Under the pieces are notes generated by a model that searched no databases, was not told the DNA's origin, and saw only the letters and a list, made by a program, of their open reading frames with translations. This document shows positions 10,802 to 29,623 of a stretch of DNA of 45,771 nt, piece after piece; position 1 is the stretch's first letter, and every line of letters starts with the position of its first letter. This stretch comes from Streptosporangiales bacterium (GTDB taxonomy: Bacteria; Actinomycetota; Actinomycetes; Streptosporangiales; WHST01). The DNA is taken from positions 1-45,771 of the forward strand of contig WHST01000042.1 of NCBI GenBank assembly GCA_009379955.1, in the 5' to 3' direction. The position numbers and the translations under genes are program-made.

Positions 10802-10875
10802 GTGCCCTCCTCTGTCCTTCCAGATCGTGTCGGCGTCACGGCCAGACATGCAGGGGCGTGCGGTACCGAGGGCGT

Positions 10876-10939
10876 GGGACCTTCGACCCGACATTCCGCA
10901 GCCGGGCGGTTTGGATACGCGTGCGAGGACGTTCGTCCC
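10876..10939. promoter_or_regulatory. DosR-type boxes between USP and alcohol dehydrogenase
   Basis: Two good cores lie in this divergent interval. GGGACC-TT-CGACCC is at 10876-10889, nearer the USP (start 10801). AGGACG-TT-CGTCCC is at 10926-10939, nearer adh (start 11001), and is almost a perfect palindrome. A weak copy GGGCGG-TT-TGGATA at 10904 is exactly 22 bp before the second core. The proximal core ends 61 bp before the adh ATG. Confidence 0.65.
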
Positions 10940-11000
10940 TGGGGGCGGACGTCGCCCGAGGCGACGATCGCGGCAACAGACCTACGAAGAAGGAGTCGTC

Positions 11001-12830: not shown

Positions 12831-13517
12831 TCACCAGTACGTCGGTGGCGTGGGCACAAGCCTGTCGTCCACCTCGTACGACAGCTGCGCGTCGACGGCG
12901 ATCACACCTTCGACCTGTTCGAGTGCCTTGATCACTCCACCGACGAGTGACCGGCGTTCCACCTGGCCGCGTATCCTGACGACGCCGTCGTGCACCTGAA
13001 CGCCGAAGCGCCGTGGATCGGTGGCGAGCGTCCTTCGCAGGACCTCTCCCTCGATCTCGGCAGTGATCTCCTCGTCCGCTCGAAGGTACTGACGCAGCAG
13101 GTCGGTTCGACTCACCATGCCGACGAGGCGCCCGGTCATCGGCTCGGTCACCGGTAGCCGCCGGATGCGGCGTGTGCGCATGAGCGCGGCAGCCTCGTCG
13201 ACGGTTCGCCTGGGCGAGACGGAGACCGCCGGCGTCGACATGAGCTCGGCGGCTCTGGTCCCGCGCGACTTCCGGCGCTCACGCCGGCGCTTGGGCGTGT
13301 CGAACACATGGACCTCCGAGCCGGCCTCCAGCTCAGCTTCCTTCAACGCCAGGTCGGCGTCCGACACGACGCCCATCACCCGACCGCTCCTGTCGACGAC
13401 GGGGACTCCACTGATCCGGTTGCGGAGCAGCACGTCGACGATCTCCTTGAACGGCGTGTCCGGCGACACGATCACCGGCCGTGGTGTCATGACCATTTCC
13501 ACCAGGGTGCGCTTCAT
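12831..13517 (-). CDS. CBS-CBS-BON domain protein
   Basis: A 228-residue protein with two CBS domains (about 8-65: MTPRPVIVSPDTPFKEIVDVL, ISGVPVVDRSGRVMGVVSDADL; about 90-150: MSTPAVSVSPRRTVDEAA, RLPVTEPMTGRLVGMVSRTDLL). A C-terminal BON domain follows (about 155-215: VQVHDGVVRIRGQVERRS). CBS pairs bind adenine nucleotides and report energy state; BON domains are often linked to membranes or phospholipid. A basic Arg/Lys linker separates the CBS units. GGAGG precedes the ATG. It diverges from hsp20 with a tandem DosR box between them and is followed by the XRE/PPOX gene. It is one of three CBS-BON proteins in the window, with those at 14872 and 18846. Confidence 0.92.
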   Translation of the reverse strand: MKRTLVEMVMTPRPVIVSPDTPFKEIVDVLLRNRISGVPVVDRSGRVMGVVSDADLALKEAELEAGSEVHVFDTPKRRRERRKSRGTRAAELMSTPAVSVSPRRTVDEAAALMRTRRIRRLPVTEPMTGRLVGMVSRTDLLRQYLRADEEITAEIEGEVLRRTLATDPRRFGVQVHDGVVRIRGQVERRSLVGGVIKALEQVEGVIAVDAQLSYEVDDRLVPTPPTYW

Positions 13518-13609
13518 GTCGGACCTCCTCCCCTATCGTCGTGGAACCTTCCTCTCCAAGGCTCTCGCCGCCGGCGAGTCGACGACAGGGCTGCCGGTCG
13601 GCCGGCGAA

Positions 13610-13645
13610 GGGACGATGGTCCTCCGCATGTGCGCACTAGGCCCC
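13610..13645. promoter_or_regulatory. Tandem DosR-type boxes between CBS-BON and hsp20
   Basis: GGGACG-AT-GGTCCT at 13610-13623 is a strong core. A second, GCGCAC-TA-GGCCCC, starts exactly 22 bp later at 13632. The pair lies in the 190-bp divergent interval. The proximal box ends 62 bp before the hsp20 ATG and the distal one begins 92 bp before the CBS-BON ATG. Confidence 0.7.
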
Positions 13646-13707
13646 TGCCCGGCCATACGCGGACGCGATGCACTGGAGATGGAAGAAGCGAGGGATGGGA
13701 GGTCGAG

Positions 13708-14121
13708 ATGACCACTTTGGAGCGCCGGTCGACGCACGGGATTCTCCCCGACCTGGCGGACTGGCTGGAAGCGCCGTTCGGCATGTTCCGGTCTCCGTCG
13801 CACATGATCAGGGTCGAGGACTACCTGGACGACGGTAAGTACGTGATCCGCGCCGAGCTGCCGGGAGTCGACCCGGAGAAGGACGTCGACATCACCATCA
13901 GTGGCAATGTCCTGCAGATCCAGGCTGAGCGCGAGGAGACACGCAAGGAGCACAACAGGTCCGAGTTCCACTACGGCTCCTTCGTCCGCTCGATGCCGCT
14001 GCCGGCGGGCGCGAACGTCAAGCACGTGTCGGCGAAGTTCGACAACGGGATCCTGGAGATCACCGTCGACATGCCGGACCGGGAGACCACGACACAACGC
14101 GTGGCCGTCCAGACGAAGTAG
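13708..14121 (+). CDS. Hsp20/alpha-crystallin small heat shock protein
   Basis: This 137-residue ATP-independent holdase keeps unfolding proteins soluble. The alpha-crystallin domain spans about residues 32-130: IRVEDYLDDGKYVIRAELPG, then DVDITISGNVLQIQAER, and the closing LPAGANVKHVSAKFDNGILEI with the G-I-L signature. GGGAGG lies before the ATG at 13708. It resembles mycobacterial HspX/Acr in size and in its apparent place under DosR control. It opens a plus-strand gene run reaching the GH65 gene at 18730. Confidence 0.95.
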   Translation: MTTLERRSTHGILPDLADWLEAPFGMFRSPSHMIRVEDYLDDGKYVIRAELPGVDPEKDVDITISGNVLQIQAEREETRKEHNRSEFHYGSFVRSMPLPAGANVKHVSAKFDNGILEITVDMPDRETTTQRVAVQTK

Positions 14122-14183
14122 GCGGGGCCCCGGGGACGTGATCAGCTCGGGTTCCCGGGTGCCGCAAGTGAGGAGGCCCGACG

Positions 14184-14426
14184 ATGAGCAGGCAGATCGG
14201 CTCAGGGTTCCAAGATCCGACGGTCGCCGAGCTCGAGCACCGCATCTCTCGACTGGAGGCCGGTCTCGCCGACCTCGAGGTGATCGTCGACGAGATGCGC
14301 AACCAGACGCTGGACGACCGACGCTCGGTCACGGCGGCACCGGACTTCTCACGTCCTGGTCGTCGCCGCACCGCGAAGGCCCGCGCCGAAAGGAACAACC
14401 GTCATGCGCACCATCCGTCCCCGTAG
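14184..14426 (+). CDS. Small hypothetical protein with short coiled coil
   Basis: An 80-residue frame with an excellent AGGAGG seven bases before its ATG. Residues about 14-42 (VAELEHRISRLEAGLADLEV) have heptad leucines and look like a short coiled coil. The rest is basic and disordered. It overlaps the next gene by 23 bp. No family is recognised. It lies between hsp20 and a USP gene in an apparent operon. The strong ribosome-binding site and the helix favour a real gene, but the short length leaves doubt. Confidence 0.55.
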   Translation: MSRQIGSGFQDPTVAELEHRISRLEAGLADLEVIVDEMRNQTLDDRRSVTAAPDFSRPGRRRTAKARAERNNRHAHHPSP

Positions 14427-14856
14427 CGTCCTGGTAGGGGTCGACGGGACACCCAACTCGATCGCCGCACTCCGCCGCGCCGCGGTGGAGGCACGCCACC
14501 GGCGTGCCGTGCTCGAAGCGGTGTACGTCGTCGAGCCCGGCTGGCAGACGGGTACCAGCACCGGCACCGGCGCGGTCGTGTCATCGGCACGAGCGACACT
14601 CCGGCACACGGTGGAAACCGTCGTTGGTGCGCGACCCGACTTCTCCGTCAAGCTCCGCGTGGTGATCGGCGACCCGGGCGAAATCCTTCCCCGGCTCGCC
14701 GACCGTGCCGAGCTGCTGGTCATCGGCGCGCGTAGCGATCCCGAATGCCTCCACCCCCTGGGCGGAGCCACCGTCCCGGCCGTGCTCGGCTCCAGCCCGT
14801 GCGAGGTCGTCGTGTGCGCCGACCACGGACGCACACGCGCAGTATCCACGGCCTGA
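14404..14856 (+). CDS. Universal stress protein-like, divergent ATP motif
   Basis: A 150-residue Usp-fold protein. The first strand is VLVGVDGTPNSIAALRRA, and VIGDPGEILPRLADRAELLVIGARS leads to the usual ATP-loop region. That loop reads GARSDPECLHPLGGATVPAVL and lacks the clean G-2X-G-9X-GS pattern, so ATP binding may be lost or altered. It sits between the small coiled-coil gene and the CBS-BON gene; the next start is 15 bp after its stop. Member of the hsp20-GH65 run. Confidence 0.85.
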   Translation: MRTIRPRSVLVGVDGTPNSIAALRRAAVEARHRRAVLEAVYVVEPGWQTGTSTGTGAVVSSARATLRHTVETVVGARPDFSVKLRVVIGDPGEILPRLADRAELLVIGARSDPECLHPLGGATVPAVLGSSPCEVVVCADHGRTRAVSTA

Positions 14857-14871
14857 TTGCGAGGAGCACCG

Positions 14872-15579
14872 ATGAGACGCACTCGCGTCGTCGACGTGAT
14901 GACCACCGATGTCGCGACCGTTCCCGCGGACGCCGGCTTCCGTCAGATCGTCCAGATGCTTGCCGAGCGCAACGTGAGTGGACTCCCGGTTGTCGATGCG
15001 GGACTCCACGTCATCGGTGTGGTCTCGGAGGCGGACCTACTGCCCAAGGAGGCCTACAAGGACGAGGTCAGACGAACGCGCTCCGTCCGGGCGTTCCTGC
15101 GCCCTCGGCGGTGGTGGCGCGACCGAGCCGATCGCCGTCGGGCTGCTGGGGACACCGCTCGCGTGCTCATGAGCACGCCCGCCATCACCATCGAGCCTGA
15201 CCGCACGATCGCCGAGGCAGCGCGCCTGCTCGCCGGTCACAGGATCAAACGACTCCCGGTTGTCGACTCCCGAAACATCCTTGTCGGCATCGTCAGTCGA
15301 GCAGATCTCGTGGGCGTGTTCCTGCGTTCGGACGACGACATCCGACAAGAGATCCTCGACGAGGTGGTCGTCAAGGCTCTCTGGGAGAGCCCGAGCACCG
15401 TCGAGGTGGACGTCCACGACGGCGTGGTGACGCTACGAGGGCGCGTCGAGATCGACACTCTCGTCCCGATCGCCGCACATCTGGCCGCCGCTGTGGACGG
15501 AGTAGTCGATGTCGCGAACGAGCTCGACTACGCCCACACCACGCCGAAGCCGCGACCCGTTCCGCCGACACCATGGTGA
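14872..15579 (+). CDS. CBS-CBS-BON domain protein
   Basis: A 235-residue paralogue of the proteins at 12831 and 18846. CBS1 covers about residues 6-62 (MTTDVATVPADAGFRQIVQML ... GLPVVDAGLHVIGVVSEADLL). A basic, Trp-containing linker follows. CBS2 covers about 100-158 (MSTPAITIEPDRTIAEAA ... RLPVVDSRNILVGIVSRADLV), and BON about 165-225 (VEVDVHDGVVTLRGRVEIDT). It probably senses adenine nucleotides. GAGGAG precedes the ATG at 14872. It overlaps the HAD gene by 7 bp, which suggests coupled translation with the sugar-phosphate genes behind it. Confidence 0.92.
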   Translation: MRRTRVVDVMTTDVATVPADAGFRQIVQMLAERNVSGLPVVDAGLHVIGVVSEADLLPKEAYKDEVRRTRSVRAFLRPRRWWRDRADRRRAAGDTARVLMSTPAITIEPDRTIAEAARLLAGHRIKRLPVVDSRNILVGIVSRADLVGVFLRSDDDIRQEILDEVVVKALWESPSTVEVDVHDGVVTLRGRVEIDTLVPIAAHLAAAVDGVVDVANELDYAHTTPKPRPVPPTPW

Positions 15580-16373
15580 CCGGTCACAAGGGCGACCAGT
15601 CGGTTCCGGCTCACCCGGCGGCTGTCGACCTGAACGGGGTCGAGGCGATCGTGTTCGACACCGACGGTGTCATCACGGACACCGCGAGGACGCATGCACA
15701 GGCGTGGAAGCGCGCGTTCGATGCGTTCCTACGAGAGCGAGCCGCCCGAACCGGCGACCAGTTCCAGTCGTTCGACGTCGCCCGTGACTACCTGTCGTTC
15801 GTCGACGGCAAGCAACGACTCGACGGCGCCATCGGCTTCCTGGAATCTCGGGGCATCCCGGTGAAAGGACAGGTGGTCGCCGTCCGCGAGCTCTGTGACC
15901 GCAAGGACGAGTACTTCCTCTCGATGGTACGACGGGACGGAGCGGCCGCGTTCCCCGACGCGATCGCGTTCATCCGCCAGGTCCGCCGACGCGGTGCACG
16001 GACAGCGGCGGTGTCCGCGAGCCGGAACTGCGAGGAGGTGCTCCGCGCGGCAGGTGTCGCCGACATGTTCGACATCCGAGTCGACGGCAGAGAGGCCGCC
16101 CGTCTCGGCCTGCCGGGAAAGCCGCATCCCGCTCTCTTCCTCGAGGCTTCCACACGCCTCGGCACCACGCCCGCAAAGACCGCCGTCGTGGAGGACTCTC
16201 TCGCGGGTGTCGAAGCCGGTCGGCGTGGCCGATTCGGCCTCGTGGTGGGCGTCGACCACGGCAGCCGCGGGACCGACCTGTGCGCGCACGGCGCGGATGT
16301 CGTCGTCACCGACCTGAGGGATCTGCGGATCGTCGGCCGACGGCAGGTGGCGGAGATCCGTCGGTCGCCATGA
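15573..16373 (+). CDS. HAD-superfamily hydrolase, beta-phosphoglucomutase-like
   Basis: A 266-residue HAD subfamily IA protein with a beta-phosphoglucomutase cap. The nucleophile motif is FDTDGVITD with Asp29 and Asp31. The cap helix region reads HAQAWKRAFDAFL. Motif II (TAAVSASRN) and motifs III/IV (GKPHPALFLEAS, then VVEDSLAGVEAG) are intact. Next to a GH65 phosphorylase, the usual task is converting beta-glucose 1-phosphate to glucose 6-phosphate. The ATG overlaps the CBS-BON stop, and its own stop overlaps the GH65 start as ATGA. A decayed copy lacking the cap is at 43496-43815. Confidence 0.92.
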   Translation: MVTGHKGDQSVPAHPAAVDLNGVEAIVFDTDGVITDTARTHAQAWKRAFDAFLRERAARTGDQFQSFDVARDYLSFVDGKQRLDGAIGFLESRGIPVKGQVVAVRELCDRKDEYFLSMVRRDGAAAFPDAIAFIRQVRRRGARTAAVSASRNCEEVLRAAGVADMFDIRVDGREAARLGLPGKPHPALFLEASTRLGTTPAKTAVVEDSLAGVEAGRRGRFGLVVGVDHGSRGTDLCAHGADVVVTDLRDLRIVGRRQVAEIRRSP

Positions 16374-18730
16374 ATCCGTGGGAACTCTCCTACACCGGCT
16401 ACGACCCCGCCTCCGAGCGCACGCGCGAGGCGTTGTGCACGCTGGGCAACGGCTACTTCGCGACCCGAGGCGCGGCGCCGGAGAGCAGGGCGGGCTCGAC
16501 ACACTACCCCGGCACCTACATCGCCGGGTGCTATGACCGGCAGGTCTCGTCGGTGGCGGGCGGCGGCTCGGTGGAGAACGAAGACCTCGTCAACGTCCCC
16601 AACTGCCTCTGCCTGACCTTCCGCATCGACGGGGGCGACTGGTTCGACCTCGATCGCTGGGTGGTCCTCGACACGCGCCAGGTCCTCCAGCTGCGTGGAG
16701 GCGTGCTTCGCCGCATGGTCCGGGTGGACGACGGCTCCGGTCGCGTGACCCGGGTCGAGCAACGTCGCCTGGTCTCGATGCACGACCGCCATCTCGCGGC
16801 GCTGGAGTCGATGATCATCCCCGAGAACTGGTCAGGAACACTGGAGGTGCGGTCGTCACTCGACGGTCGCATCGTGAACTCCGGTGTCGAGCGCTACCTA
16901 GCACTGCAACGAGGCCATCTGGAAGTCGCCGAGACCTTCTCCGGCGACGACATCGCCGCATTGCGAACCAGGACGCTGGCTTCGCGCACCGAGATCGTCC
17001 TTGCCGCGCGCACGCGGGTGAACGGCACCCGCGTCAACGATGCGACCTTCCACACGGACTCGGGACTGGTCGACCATTTCCTGACGATGGACGCAACCCA
17101 GGGACGGGCACTGGTCGTCGAGAAGGTCGCCGCGGTCTTCACCTCCCGCGATCCGGCCGTCGCGGAACCGTTGTCCGCGGCCAGGGACCTGGCACGTAGC
17201 GCATCGGGCTTCGGCATCTTGCTGAACGAACACGTCGAAGCCTGGGGCCGACTGTGGCGGCGACACCGCATCGAGGTCGACGACACCGAGGTGCAGCGCA
17301 CCCTCAACCTGTATACGTTCCACCTGCTCCAGACCCTGTCTCCCCACACCACCGACCTCGACGTCGGAGTGCCGGCCCGTGGGCTGCACGGGGAGGCGTA
17401 CCGCGGGCACGTCTTCTGGGACGAGCTCTTCGTCCTGCCGCTGCTCAGCCTGCGCTCTCCCGAGATCAGCCGCGCACTCCTGATCTACCGATGGCGACGC
17501 CTGCCGCAGGCGCGCATCGCTGCCGCACGCTGCGGAAAGCGTGGCGCAATGTTCCCGTGGCAGAGCGGCAGTGACGGACGTGAGGAGAGCCAGTCGTTCC
17601 ACCTCAACCCTCTGTCGGGGCGCTGGCTACCCGATCACTCCCGGCTGCAGCGCCATGTCGGTCTCGCGATCGCCTACAACGTCTGGCAGTACTACGACGC
17701 CACGGCGGACGACGCGTTCCTCATCGAGTACGGAGCCGAGCTCCTCCTGGACACGGCGCGCTACTTCGCCGACCTGGCGACGTACGACGAAACTCGAGAG
17801 CGATACGAGATCCACGGTGTCATGGGCCCTGACGAGTATCACGATGCCTACCCTGGCGCGAGCGAGGCCGGACTGCGTAACAACGCCTACACCAACGTCA
17901 TGACGGCGTGGCTGATGCGGAAGGCTCTGGACGTCCTCTCGATCCTGCCGATGTGGCGCCGCCGAGAGCTGTGCGAGAAGCTGGCGCTGAGCGATGCGGA
18001 GATCGAGAGGTTCGACCACGTCAGCCACCGCCTCGTCGTCCCGTTTCACGACGGCGTGGTCAGCCAGTTCGCAGGTTACGAAGACCTTGCCGAGCTCGAC
18101 TGGGATCGTTACCGCGAACGTTACGGTGACATCCGCCGGCTCGACCGCATCCTGGAGGCCGAAGGGGACTCACCCAACGCCTACAAGGCGTCAAAGCAGG
18201 CAGATGCGCTGATGCTTTTCTATCTCCTGTCCGCCGAGGAGTTCAGTGAGATCCTCGGCAGGCTCGGCTACACCTACGATGCTGATCTGATCCCCAGGAC
18301 GGTCGACTACTACCTGGCACGGACGACCCACGGGTCGAGCCTCAGCGCGGTCGTCCACGCCTGGGTGCTCTCTCGCACCGATCGCGAGTCGTCGTGGCAT
18401 CACTTCCTCGAGGTCCTGCATGGTGAGCTCGCCACCGTCGGAGGGACGACCGCCGAGGGGATCCATCTCGGCGCCATGGCAGGGGCACTCGATCTCGCGC
18501 AGCGGTGCTACGGAGGGCTGCGTCTCCACGAGAACCGGGTCCACCTGCATCCCTGTCTGCCCCGAGAGCTCGGGGAGCTGAGCTTCGGACTGCGCTTCCA
18601 TGCGCGGTGGGAGCTGCGGGTGCGATGTGACGGAGAAGGTATCGAGGTCACGGGCCAGCAGGACTCCACCGCGGTGCCCGTCGTGGTGGACGGTGCGGTA
18701 CCCCTCGACTTCCGTGTCCAGCTCACCTGA
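16370..18730 (+). CDS. Glycoside hydrolase family 65 disaccharide phosphorylase (trehalose/kojibiose/maltose type)
   Basis: A 786-residue GH65 enzyme, which splits an alpha-glucoside with inorganic phosphate to beta-glucose 1-phosphate and glucose. The N-terminal beta-sandwich starts WELSYTGYDPASERTREALCTLGNGYFATRGA. The (alpha/alpha)6 barrel carries the general acid Glu489 in VMGPDEYHDAY. The phosphate-binding parts are KQADALMLFYLL and THGSSLSAVVHAW. The ATG overlaps the HAD stop (ATGA), so phosphorylase and mutase are made together. Whether the substrate is trehalose, kojibiose, nigerose or maltose cannot be read from sequence. Trehalose is a reasonable guess, as actinobacteria store it. 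Hydrolase activity is unlikely given the conserved phosphate site. Confidence 0.92.
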   Translation: MNPWELSYTGYDPASERTREALCTLGNGYFATRGAAPESRAGSTHYPGTYIAGCYDRQVSSVAGGGSVENEDLVNVPNCLCLTFRIDGGDWFDLDRWVVLDTRQVLQLRGGVLRRMVRVDDGSGRVTRVEQRRLVSMHDRHLAALESMIIPENWSGTLEVRSSLDGRIVNSGVERYLALQRGHLEVAETFSGDDIAALRTRTLASRTEIVLAARTRVNGTRVNDATFHTDSGLVDHFLTMDATQGRALVVEKVAAVFTSRDPAVAEPLSAARDLARSASGFGILLNEHVEAWGRLWRRHRIEVDDTEVQRTLNLYTFHLLQTLSPHTTDLDVGVPARGLHGEAYRGHVFWDELFVLPLLSLRSPEISRALLIYRWRRLPQARIAAARCGKRGAMFPWQSGSDGREESQSFHLNPLSGRWLPDHSRLQRHVGLAIAYNVWQYYDATADDAFLIEYGAELLLDTARYFADLATYDETRERYEIHGVMGPDEYHDAYPGASEAGLRNNAYTNVMTAWLMRKALDVLSILPMWRRRELCEKLALSDAEIERFDHVSHRLVVPFHDGVVSQFAGYEDLAELDWDRYRERYGDIRRLDRILEAEGDSPNAYKASKQADALMLFYLLSAEEFSEILGRLGYTYDADLIPRTVDYYLARTTHGSSLSAVVHAWVLSRTDRESSWHHFLEVLHGELATVGGTTAEGIHLGAMAGALDLAQRCYGGLRLHENRVHLHPCLPRELGELSFGLRFHARWELRVRCDGEGIEVTGQQDSTAVPVVVDGAVPLDFRVQLT

Positions 18731-18762
18731 AGCAGCCACCTTCGTTGTCCCGCGGAGCCAGG

Positions 18763-18798
18763 TGGACGAAGGTCACGCGCAGTCCAGGCCTAAGCCAC
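18763..18798. promoter_or_regulatory. Weak tandem DosR-like boxes upstream of CBS-BON
   Basis: TGGACG-AA-GGTCAC at 18763-18776 and CAGGCC-TA-AGCCAC at 18785-18798 are again 22 bp apart, ending 47 bp before the ATG at 18846. Each half is degenerate. The call rests mainly on the spacing rule shared with the stronger promoters of this window. Confidence 0.4.
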
Positions 18799-18845
18799 TG
18801 ACCTCTCTTCGGAGATCGTCATAGCGTGAGGTCGGAGGGATGACA

Positions 18846-19520
18846 ATGAGACGTTTGAAGATCCGCGACTTCATGACGAAGGACGTGGCGACCGTTCCGC
18901 TCGATGCACCGTTCGCATCCATCGCGCGCCTGCTGGTCGAGCGCCGCATCAACTCCGCGCCCGTGGTCGACAGAATCGGCCACGTGTGCGGGATGGTCTC
19001 GATGAGCGACCTGCTCCACAAGGAGGGGAACCGTGACGACCCGGAGAATACGTTCGCGTTCGCCCACAGCACGCGGGTGTCCCACGCCAAGGGGGCTGCC
19101 ACGACGGCTGCGAAGTTGATGACCGCACCTGCGATCGAGGTCGGACCTGACGTCAGCGTCGTCAGTGCTGCCAAGCTGATGGCCCGCAAGCGGGTGAAGC
19201 AGCTGCCCGTGGTCGAGGGCGGCACGCTCGTGGGAATCGTCACGAGATCCGACCTCGTGCGAGCCTTCCTGCGGCCCGACGACGATATCCGTGACGACGT
19301 CGAAGCGGAGTTCATCGCCCACCGCTCTGTATGGTCTCGCCTTGACGGCATCACCGTGGAGGTGGACAACGGTGTCGTCATGCTCACGGGTGACGTCGAG
19401 CGCAGAAGTGAACTGGTCACGGCCGTCAAGCTCGCGTCCAGGATCGAGGGTGTCGTCGACGTGCGGCCCGATCTCACATATTCCTTCGACGACACGGTCC
19501 CCGTGTATCCGGGCTTCTGA
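18846..19520 (+). CDS. CBS-CBS-BON domain protein
   Basis: A 224-residue protein: CBS1 about residues 5-60 (MTKDVATVPLDAPFASIARL ... SAPVVDRIGHVCGMVSMSDLL), CBS2 about 90-148 (MTAPAIEVGPDVSVVSAAKL ... QLPVVEGGTLVGIVTRSDLV), BON about 155-215 (ITVEVDNGVVMLTGDVERRS). It is the third CBS-BON paralogue here. I place the start at ATG 18846, with GGAGGG six bases upstream; the ATG at 18840 is too close to that site. It stands alone between the GH65 gene and a strong terminator, so it probably forms its own unit. Confidence 0.92.
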   Translation: MRRLKIRDFMTKDVATVPLDAPFASIARLLVERRINSAPVVDRIGHVCGMVSMSDLLHKEGNRDDPENTFAFAHSTRVSHAKGAATTAAKLMTAPAIEVGPDVSVVSAAKLMARKRVKQLPVVEGGTLVGIVTRSDLVRAFLRPDDDIRDDVEAEFIAHRSVWSRLDGITVEVDNGVVMLTGDVERRSELVTAVKLASRIEGVVDVRPDLTYSFDDTVPVYPGF

Positions 19521-23885: not shown

Positions 23886-23931
23886 TTAACCCTCGACGGG
23901 CGGCGCGCGTACCGTGGCCGGTGTGGAAAAG

Positions 23932-24585
23932 ATGATCACCGTCTTCCTGCTCGACGACCATGAAGTTGTCCGGCAGGGACTCCGTACCGTGCTCGAGCAC
24001 GAGCCCGACATCGAGGTCGTCGGAGAGGCGGAGAACGCGTCGCAGGCACTCGGCCGGGTCCCCGCCCTGCGTCCCGACATCGCGGTCCTCGATGTCCGCC
24101 TCCCGGACGGCGACGGCATCACCGTGTGCCGCGAGCTCCGCGACAGAGTGCCGGGCTTGGCCTGCATCATGCTGACGTCGTTCCCCGACGACGACGCGAT
24201 GATGCAGGCCGTCATGGCCGGTGCATCGGGCTACCTGCTGAAGGAGGTCAGGGGCTCGAAGATCGTCGACGCCGTCCGCGCTGTCGCGCAGGGGAACTCG
24301 CTGCTCGACCCCGTCGCCACCGCGCGGCTGCTCGACAAGCTCCGCGCCGACGCGCACCGCAAGGACCCGCTGGCAGCCCTCACCGCGCAGGAACGCGAGG
24401 TGCTCGCGCTCATCGGCGAAGGCCTCACCAACAGGCAGATCGGCGAACGGCTCTTCCTGGCGGAGAAGACCGTCAAGAACTACATCTCCAACGTCTTCAC
24501 CAAGCTCGGCATACAGCGACGCACCCAGGCCGCCATCTTGGCGACCAAGCTGCAGATGGATCAGGACGAGCACAGCAGAGAGTGA
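23932..24585 (+). CDS. devR: DosR/DevR-type response regulator (NarL/FixJ family)
   Basis: A 217-residue regulator, the same length as mycobacterial DosR and close to it throughout. The receiver begins MITVFLLDDHEVVRQGL, the phospho-acceptor is Asp54 (VLDVRLPDGDG), then LTSF and GASGYLLKEV. The LuxR-type HTH is at about 145-210 (LTAQEREVLALIGEGLTNRQI, recognition helix LAEKTVKNYISNVFTKLG). It likely binds the GGGACC palindromes found across this window under hypoxia. The ATG at 23932 is preferred by family length; GTG codons at 23914 and 23923 are alternatives, and no start has a strong ribosome site. Its presumed kinase is at 27782, not adjacent. Confidence 0.93.
   Translation: MITVFLLDDHEVVRQGLRTVLEHEPDIEVVGEAENASQALGRVPALRPDIAVLDVRLPDGDGITVCRELRDRVPGLACIMLTSFPDDDAMMQAVMAGASGYLLKEVRGSKIVDAVRAVAQGNSLLDPVATARLLDKLRADAHRKDPLAALTAQEREVLALIGEGLTNRQIGERLFLAEKTVKNYISNVFTKLGIQRRTQAAILATKLQMDQDEHSRE

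Positions 24586-27781: not shown

Positions 27782-29623
<1,842 letters not shown>

Follow-up and report, generated by a model that had tools for sequence, protein, structure and literature searches.

A predicted trehalose-6-phosphate phosphorylase paired with a β-phosphoglucomutase in a DosR-type stress island of a Streptosporangiales bacterium

We analyzed a 45,771-nucleotide stretch of a Streptosporangiales bacterium genome (assembly GCA_009379955.1, contig WHST01000042.1, positions 1 to 45,771 of the forward strand; hereafter, the window), in which the genes for a HAD β-phosphoglucomutase (β-PGM) and a GH65 phosphorylase overlap at the end of a stress operon. With a probability of about 0.7, we interpret this pair as a two-enzyme module within a DosR-type dormancy regulon that would exchange trehalose-6-phosphate (T6P) and glucose-6-phosphate (G6P). 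The GH65 enzyme would interconvert T6P plus inorganic phosphate (Pi) and β-glucose-1-phosphate (β-G1P) plus G6P, the HAD enzyme would interconvert β-G1P and G6P, and together they would run T6P + Pi ↔ two G6P without nucleotides; trehalose would be reached via OtsB, the gene for which lies next to that for OtsA at another place in the genome. The gene order, overlaps, domains, catalytic residues, specificity fingerprint, regulator, DosR-like boxes and recurrence in DosR-like islands, on which this interpretation is built, are direct observations. The presence of a GH65 phosphorylase and a β-PGM in a DosR-type stress operon, proposed in an earlier note on this DNA, is thus supported, with a different substrate.

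The GH65 phosphorylase and the β-phosphoglucomutase

The GH65 gene (16370–18730, plus strand) encodes a 786 amino acid (aa) protein that contains the N-terminal, central and C-terminal GH65 domains (Pfam 65N/65m/65C). The catalytic acid E489, within the MGPDEYH motif (codon 17834–17836, plus strand), is invariant across the 138 aligned sequences. In GH65, substrate specificity can be deduced from six correlated sites (De Beul 2021, PMC8537180), with the fingerprints DQGQDE in CaGP, a confirmed T6P phosphorylase, TRIGPP in trehalose phosphorylase, EEAPxx in kojibiose phosphorylase and KV[MF]NES in maltose phosphorylases (PMC8537180). The window enzyme reads D72, Q398, G400, Q408, D422 and E598 (CsKP positions 64, 392, 394, 402, 416 and 585), that is, DQGQDE, the same as CaGP. 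It carries neither the trehalose phosphorylase nor the maltose phosphorylase fingerprint, and the kojibiose phosphorylase fingerprint with its WET motif is likewise lacking, given D72, Q398, G400 and Q408 and a loop 3 that begins with W-Q, not W-E. In the 138-sequence alignment, DQGQDE is also found in the Weissella protein of PDB entry 9lb6, deposited as a T6P enzyme, whereas mycobacterial relatives mostly have SQGQDE.

The same entry, 9lb6, is the best PDB match by sequence (4e-132, 445 bits, vs 1e-93, 318 bits, for kojibiose phosphorylase) and the top structural match of the AlphaFold model of the window enzyme (predicted local distance difference test score 84.8; Z 42.9, root-mean-square deviation 2.2, 749 residues aligned). 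It would be the structure that Feng 2025, cited in PMC13121652, reported for a T6P phosphorylase. The clade of the window enzyme and 9lb6 both retain Arg 377, 590 and 593, which are not common to both other characterized enzymes compared; Arg 590 and Arg 593, located near the fingerprint position E598, could bind the 6-phosphate. By the criteria that distinguish GH65 phosphorylases from hydrolases (PMC8626586), the possibility that the window protein is a hydrolase was rejected: the phosphate-site residues S656, S657 and H699 are retained, and the position of the hydrolase general base, located by the residue spacing of FjGH65A, is occupied by V690, not Glu.

Taken from its sequence, the window GH65 is most likely a T6P phosphorylase, and its substrate would be T6P, a biosynthetic intermediate and not a store. 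The earlier note had envisaged phosphorolysis of a stored disaccharide and listed trehalose, kojibiose, nigerose and maltose as candidates; the fingerprint speaks against this, and T6P was missing from that list. With the known T6P phosphorylases (EC 2.4.1.216; Lactococcus lactis TrePP and Caldithrix CaGP), the window enzyme shares the GH65 fold, the catalytic Glu and the phosphate site, and with CaGP the fingerprint. In Lactococcus, T6P arises from trehalose uptake by the phosphotransferase system; in the window organism, by contrast, it would come from OtsA or from the reverse reaction. The gene is single-copy in the 6.6 Mb draft genome. Related genomes (loci L028 and L029) encode a further GH65 that is about 31% identical and has a trehalose phosphorylase-like TR..GP fingerprint; it is absent from the genome of the window. 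Phosphoketolase and metal-transport genes are found close to plasmid-borne members of the group (L035, L039 and L043), of which L035 and L043 have the fingerprint HQGPDE.

The HAD protein (15573–16373, plus strand; 266 aa) has as its best PDB match 8h5s, which is named β-phosphoglucomutase (1e-51). Nine of the 10 catalytic residues checked are present (D8, D10, T16, H20, R49, S114, K145, E169 and D170, in L. lactis numbering), and the K45 column is occupied by D in the window protein and 8h5s alike. The protein scores below the NCBIfam cut-offs (147.9 vs 153.35 bits for TIGR02009; 96.8 vs 189.4 bits for TIGR01990), which, given the match to 8h5s, we regard as non-defining for the predicted β-PGM activity. 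Mycobacterium tuberculosis possesses a pair, Rv3400/Rv3401, of a β-PGM and a GH65 protein; it is not among the published DosR training genes. Rv3400 is probably the protein in 8h5s and is referred to as a characterized β-PGM in PMC12282177.

The operon and the DosR-type island

Upstream of the HAD and GH65 genes, the operon comprises the genes for an Hsp20 small heat-shock protein (13708–14121, 137 aa; PF00011, 5.9e-20), a putative 80 aa product (14184–14426), a universal stress protein (USP; 14404–14856, 150 aa; PF00582, 1.4e-15) and a CBS-CBS-BON protein (14872–15579, 235 aa; PF00571, 7e-28; PF04972, 3e-11). All six genes are on the plus strand, and every product except the 80 aa one was assigned to a Pfam family. 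The order and coordinates agree with the earlier note, and so do the overlaps of 7 bp between the CBS-BON and HAD genes and of 4 bp (ATGA) between the HAD and GH65 genes; in addition, the small open reading frame and the USP gene overlap by 23 bp. The interval 13400–19000 contains neither a sigma-70-like promoter nor a terminator-like site on the same strand, which is weak evidence because actinobacterial promoters differ. The six genes would be co-transcribed. Two other CBS-BON paralogues (12831–13517 and 18840–19520) flank the one in the operon, all three within 7 kb.

The island encodes a DosR/DevR-type response regulator (23914–24585, plus strand; PDB 3c3w, DevR, 4e-76), in which the recognition helix, FLAEKTVKNY, matches M. 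tuberculosis DevR residue for residue, together with a DosS-like GAF-GAF histidine kinase (27782–29569, minus strand; Pfam GAF_2, GAF, HisKA_3 and HATPase_c). It also holds narGHI, an MFS transporter, several USPs, pyridoxamine-oxidase-like proteins, a P-type ATPase, a wax-ester synthase, a nitroreductase, an alcohol dehydrogenase and an acetyltransferase/acyl-CoA-synthetase-like protein, of which the dehydrogenase and the acyl-CoA-synthetase-like protein were named from sequence only.

An intergenic DosR-like box, GAAGGGACGATGGTCCTCCG, lies at 13607–13626, 81–101 bp ahead of hsp20, with the core GGGACGATGGTCCT at 13610–13623, and scores 14.0 in our own weighting of the M. tuberculosis DosR consensus, the maximum of which is 18.5. 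The tandem box of the earlier note stands in its first half: the partner at 13628–13647, spaced by 21 bp, scores 11.0, which is attained at about 0.8–0.9% of all positions and is therefore unconvincing, so that the tandem arrangement was rejected as strong evidence. Across the window, the box signal is more than chance. Six of the 10 best boxes are intergenic, compared with 14% of the sequence (binomial probability about 0.001), and GGGACN4GNCCC has six exact matches vs 1.6 expected, a number attained in none of 100 shuffles; the six matches represent five sites, one palindromic site being counted on both strands. DosR-driven induction of the operon would be consistent with these boxes and the regulator. 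At 10873–10942, between a USP gene and an alcohol dehydrogenase gene, two DosR-like boxes separated by 50 bp form a pair with higher scores (14.5 and 14.0).

Recurrence of the module and the mycobacterial OtsB1

We collected 111 loci from plasmids, named genomes and relatives of the window, chosen for their similarity to a fusion protein from Rhodococcus; the counts of arrangements are therefore not natural frequencies. HAD, OtsB and GH65 are fused in 48 loci, a HAD–OtsB protein accompanies GH65 in 13, HAD and GH65 are arranged as in the window in 15, and GH65 stands alone in 21, in addition to minor types. The fused domains were confirmed with Pfam in Rhodococcus, and the HAD–OtsB fusions in two alphaproteobacteria. 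Altogether, β-PGM, OtsB and GH65 are fused or adjacent in several phyla, and in five loci from Bacteroidetes, Cloacimonadota and Epsilonproteobacteria (L094, L099, L100, L101 and L104), β-PGM–OtsB, GH65 and OtsA are adjacent. The 48 fusions, the 13 pairs and the five loci with OtsA tie T6P to this GH65.

Within the fetched stretches of 12–20 kb, a DosR-type regulator or GAF kinase is encoded in 15 of the 39 Mycobacterium, Nocardia and Rhodococcus loci, 5 of the 20 relatives of the window and none of the 18 non-actinobacterial loci; USP genes are present in 28 of the 39. Control by energy charge through the CBS-BON protein, which the earlier note suggested, is conjectural, and HAD is immediately preceded by a CBS-BON gene (gap below 400 bp) in only 2 of the 20 relatives. 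As for the operon order, the comparison of which the earlier note proposed, the module recurs in DosR-like islands; the exact order from hsp20 to GH65 occurs in 0 of the 20 relatives, with varying CBS-BON, USP and PNPOx neighbors. Scanning for DosR boxes upstream of all OtsB-GH65 genes, whether fused or adjacent, brought no uniform picture: 11 of 65 reached p ≤ 0.05, the median was 0.28, and the signal is concentrated in some Mycobacterium and Nocardia species.

The earlier note knew of no equivalent gene in the mycobacterial DosR regulon. Such a gene does exist: Rv2006 (otsB1) belongs to the regulon (PMC2867773; PMC12090744), and its homologues in many species of Mycobacterium are HAD–OtsB–GH65 fusions. 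The function of the 1327 aa Rv2006 product has been called unknown (Chem Rev 2024), its deletion caused no obvious phenotype, and T6P phosphatase activity is reported for OtsB2 only (PMC11046441); the 2004 claim that OtsB1 lacks activity came without data, according to PMC12090744. Our comparison rests on homologues in other mycobacteria, not on Rv2006 itself. Of 148 genomes from the genus that includes M. gastri, roughly half encode full-length fused homologues. Their GH65 parts are about 50–54% identical to that of the window, they occur in DosR-like islands beside USP genes, and in several species, a DosR-like box is found in the upstream region. Unlike these single fused proteins with an OtsB domain, HAD and GH65 in the window are separate and intact, and the operon has no OtsB.

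Among 30 Mycobacterium copies, the mean pairwise identity is 35% for HAD, 58% for OtsB and 74% for GH65. The OtsB catalytic motif is broken in 10 of 74 actinobacterial fusions (L058, L067, L068, L076, L082, L146–L149 and L175), for example, NYDST in place of DxDGT in M. gastri; several of these are closely related, so there were fewer than 10 independent losses. The GH65 catalytic Glu and phosphate-site His were lost in none of the 74, and in most Mycobacterium fusions, the HAD part lacks its cap or is degenerate. Judged by these sequence comparisons, GH65 is the most strongly constrained part of the fused proteins. From the DosR membership, the fused homologues, the broken OtsB vs intact GH65 and the identity gradient, it follows that OtsB1 is probably a T6P phosphorylase.

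Direction of the exchange and alternative explanations

Judging from hydrolysis energies, T6P + Pi and two G6P are near equilibrium, and therefore, the direction would follow the metabolite pools and OtsB activity. Our best guess is a near-equilibrium valve that is turned on by DosR and would drain T6P when OtsA outpaces OtsB, or supply T6P and trehalose from G6P when uridine triphosphate (UTP) is short. Several observations weigh against the proposed exchange module. The structural match to kojibiose phosphorylase (Z 41.5) is just 1.4 below that to 9lb6, and the depositors labeled 9lb6 inconsistently (T6P hydrolase; phosphatase). In a small tree, built without the CaGP and TrePP sequences, 9lb6 and the window group do not cluster apart from kojibiose phosphorylase; our case for T6P activity therefore relies on the fingerprint and on context instead of a close phylogenetic grouping. 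Furthermore, in the 21 loci with GH65 alone, neither HAD nor OtsB was detected nearby, fusion with OtsB alone would equally fit a trehalose-using enzyme, and the hsp20 box by itself is not rare, as null sequence attains 14.0 three times.

Two one-directional versions of the exchange are the closest competitors. The module could only drain T6P, returning what OtsA makes to G6P, which would spare carbon and prevent T6P build-up in non-growing cells. This version, for which we would give somewhat less than even odds, accords with OtsA being present in 42 of the 49 genomes that carry the module, as well as adjacent in the five loci above, and with the loss of OtsB but not GH65 in the 10 broken fusions; however, intact OtsB in most fused copies would compete for T6P, and the in vitro use reported in PMC13121652 goes towards T6P.

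The opposite version, a nucleotide-free route from two G6P to T6P via β-PGM and the phosphorylase, with OtsB pulling towards trehalose, appears doubtful. The fusion or adjacency of the three domains across several phyla fits it, and so does the in vitro synthesis of T6P free of adenosine triphosphate with maltose phosphorylase, β-PGM and T6P phosphorylase (Taguchi 2020, as described in PMC13121652); with a T6P phosphorylase, such synthesis is reported to work well. The route is not stand-alone, however, and most Mycobacterium fusions have a capless or degenerate HAD. Of the seven module genomes without OtsA, mostly metagenome-assembled genomes of unknown completeness, four have TreY and two a full-score TreS. 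A general role of the module as the sole trehalose route was accordingly rejected, and as most module genomes have OtsA, we do not claim a sole biosynthetic role. To our knowledge, a route from two G6P is not among the usual ones (OtsAB, TreYZ, TreS, TreT and TreP), and a literature search for UTP-independent trehalose synthesis found nothing. That actinobacterial dormancy regulons, including that of M. tuberculosis through OtsB1, turn on a T6P phosphorylase which, with β-PGM and OtsB, would make trehalose from two G6P without nucleotides, seems unlikely.

It is improbable that HAD-GH65 is a passenger with its own promoter, outside DosR control, in a stress island of unrelated genes: the variable neighbors and the absence of the hsp20-to-GH65 order among the relatives would suit a passenger, but the start and stop codons overlap, the module recurs in DosR-like islands, and Rv2006, its mycobacterial counterpart, has been documented as a member of the DosR regulon. 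Least probable is a trehalose phosphorylase that would split stored trehalose into β-G1P and glucose, an enzyme of the same family with the same partner and compatible with a fused or adjacent OtsB, the trehalose maker, given that the fingerprint is DQGQDE and not TRIGPP, the relatives have a separate TR..GP paralogue, and the closest relative with a solved structure is a T6P enzyme.

If the exchange module operates as proposed, the dormancy response would be linked to control of the T6P pool at no nucleotide cost. It would also account for the separate HAD-GH65 pairs in similar islands of other actinobacteria. The comparison with the OtsB1 homologues yields a concrete prediction, namely, that the conserved working part of OtsB1 is a T6P phosphorylase.

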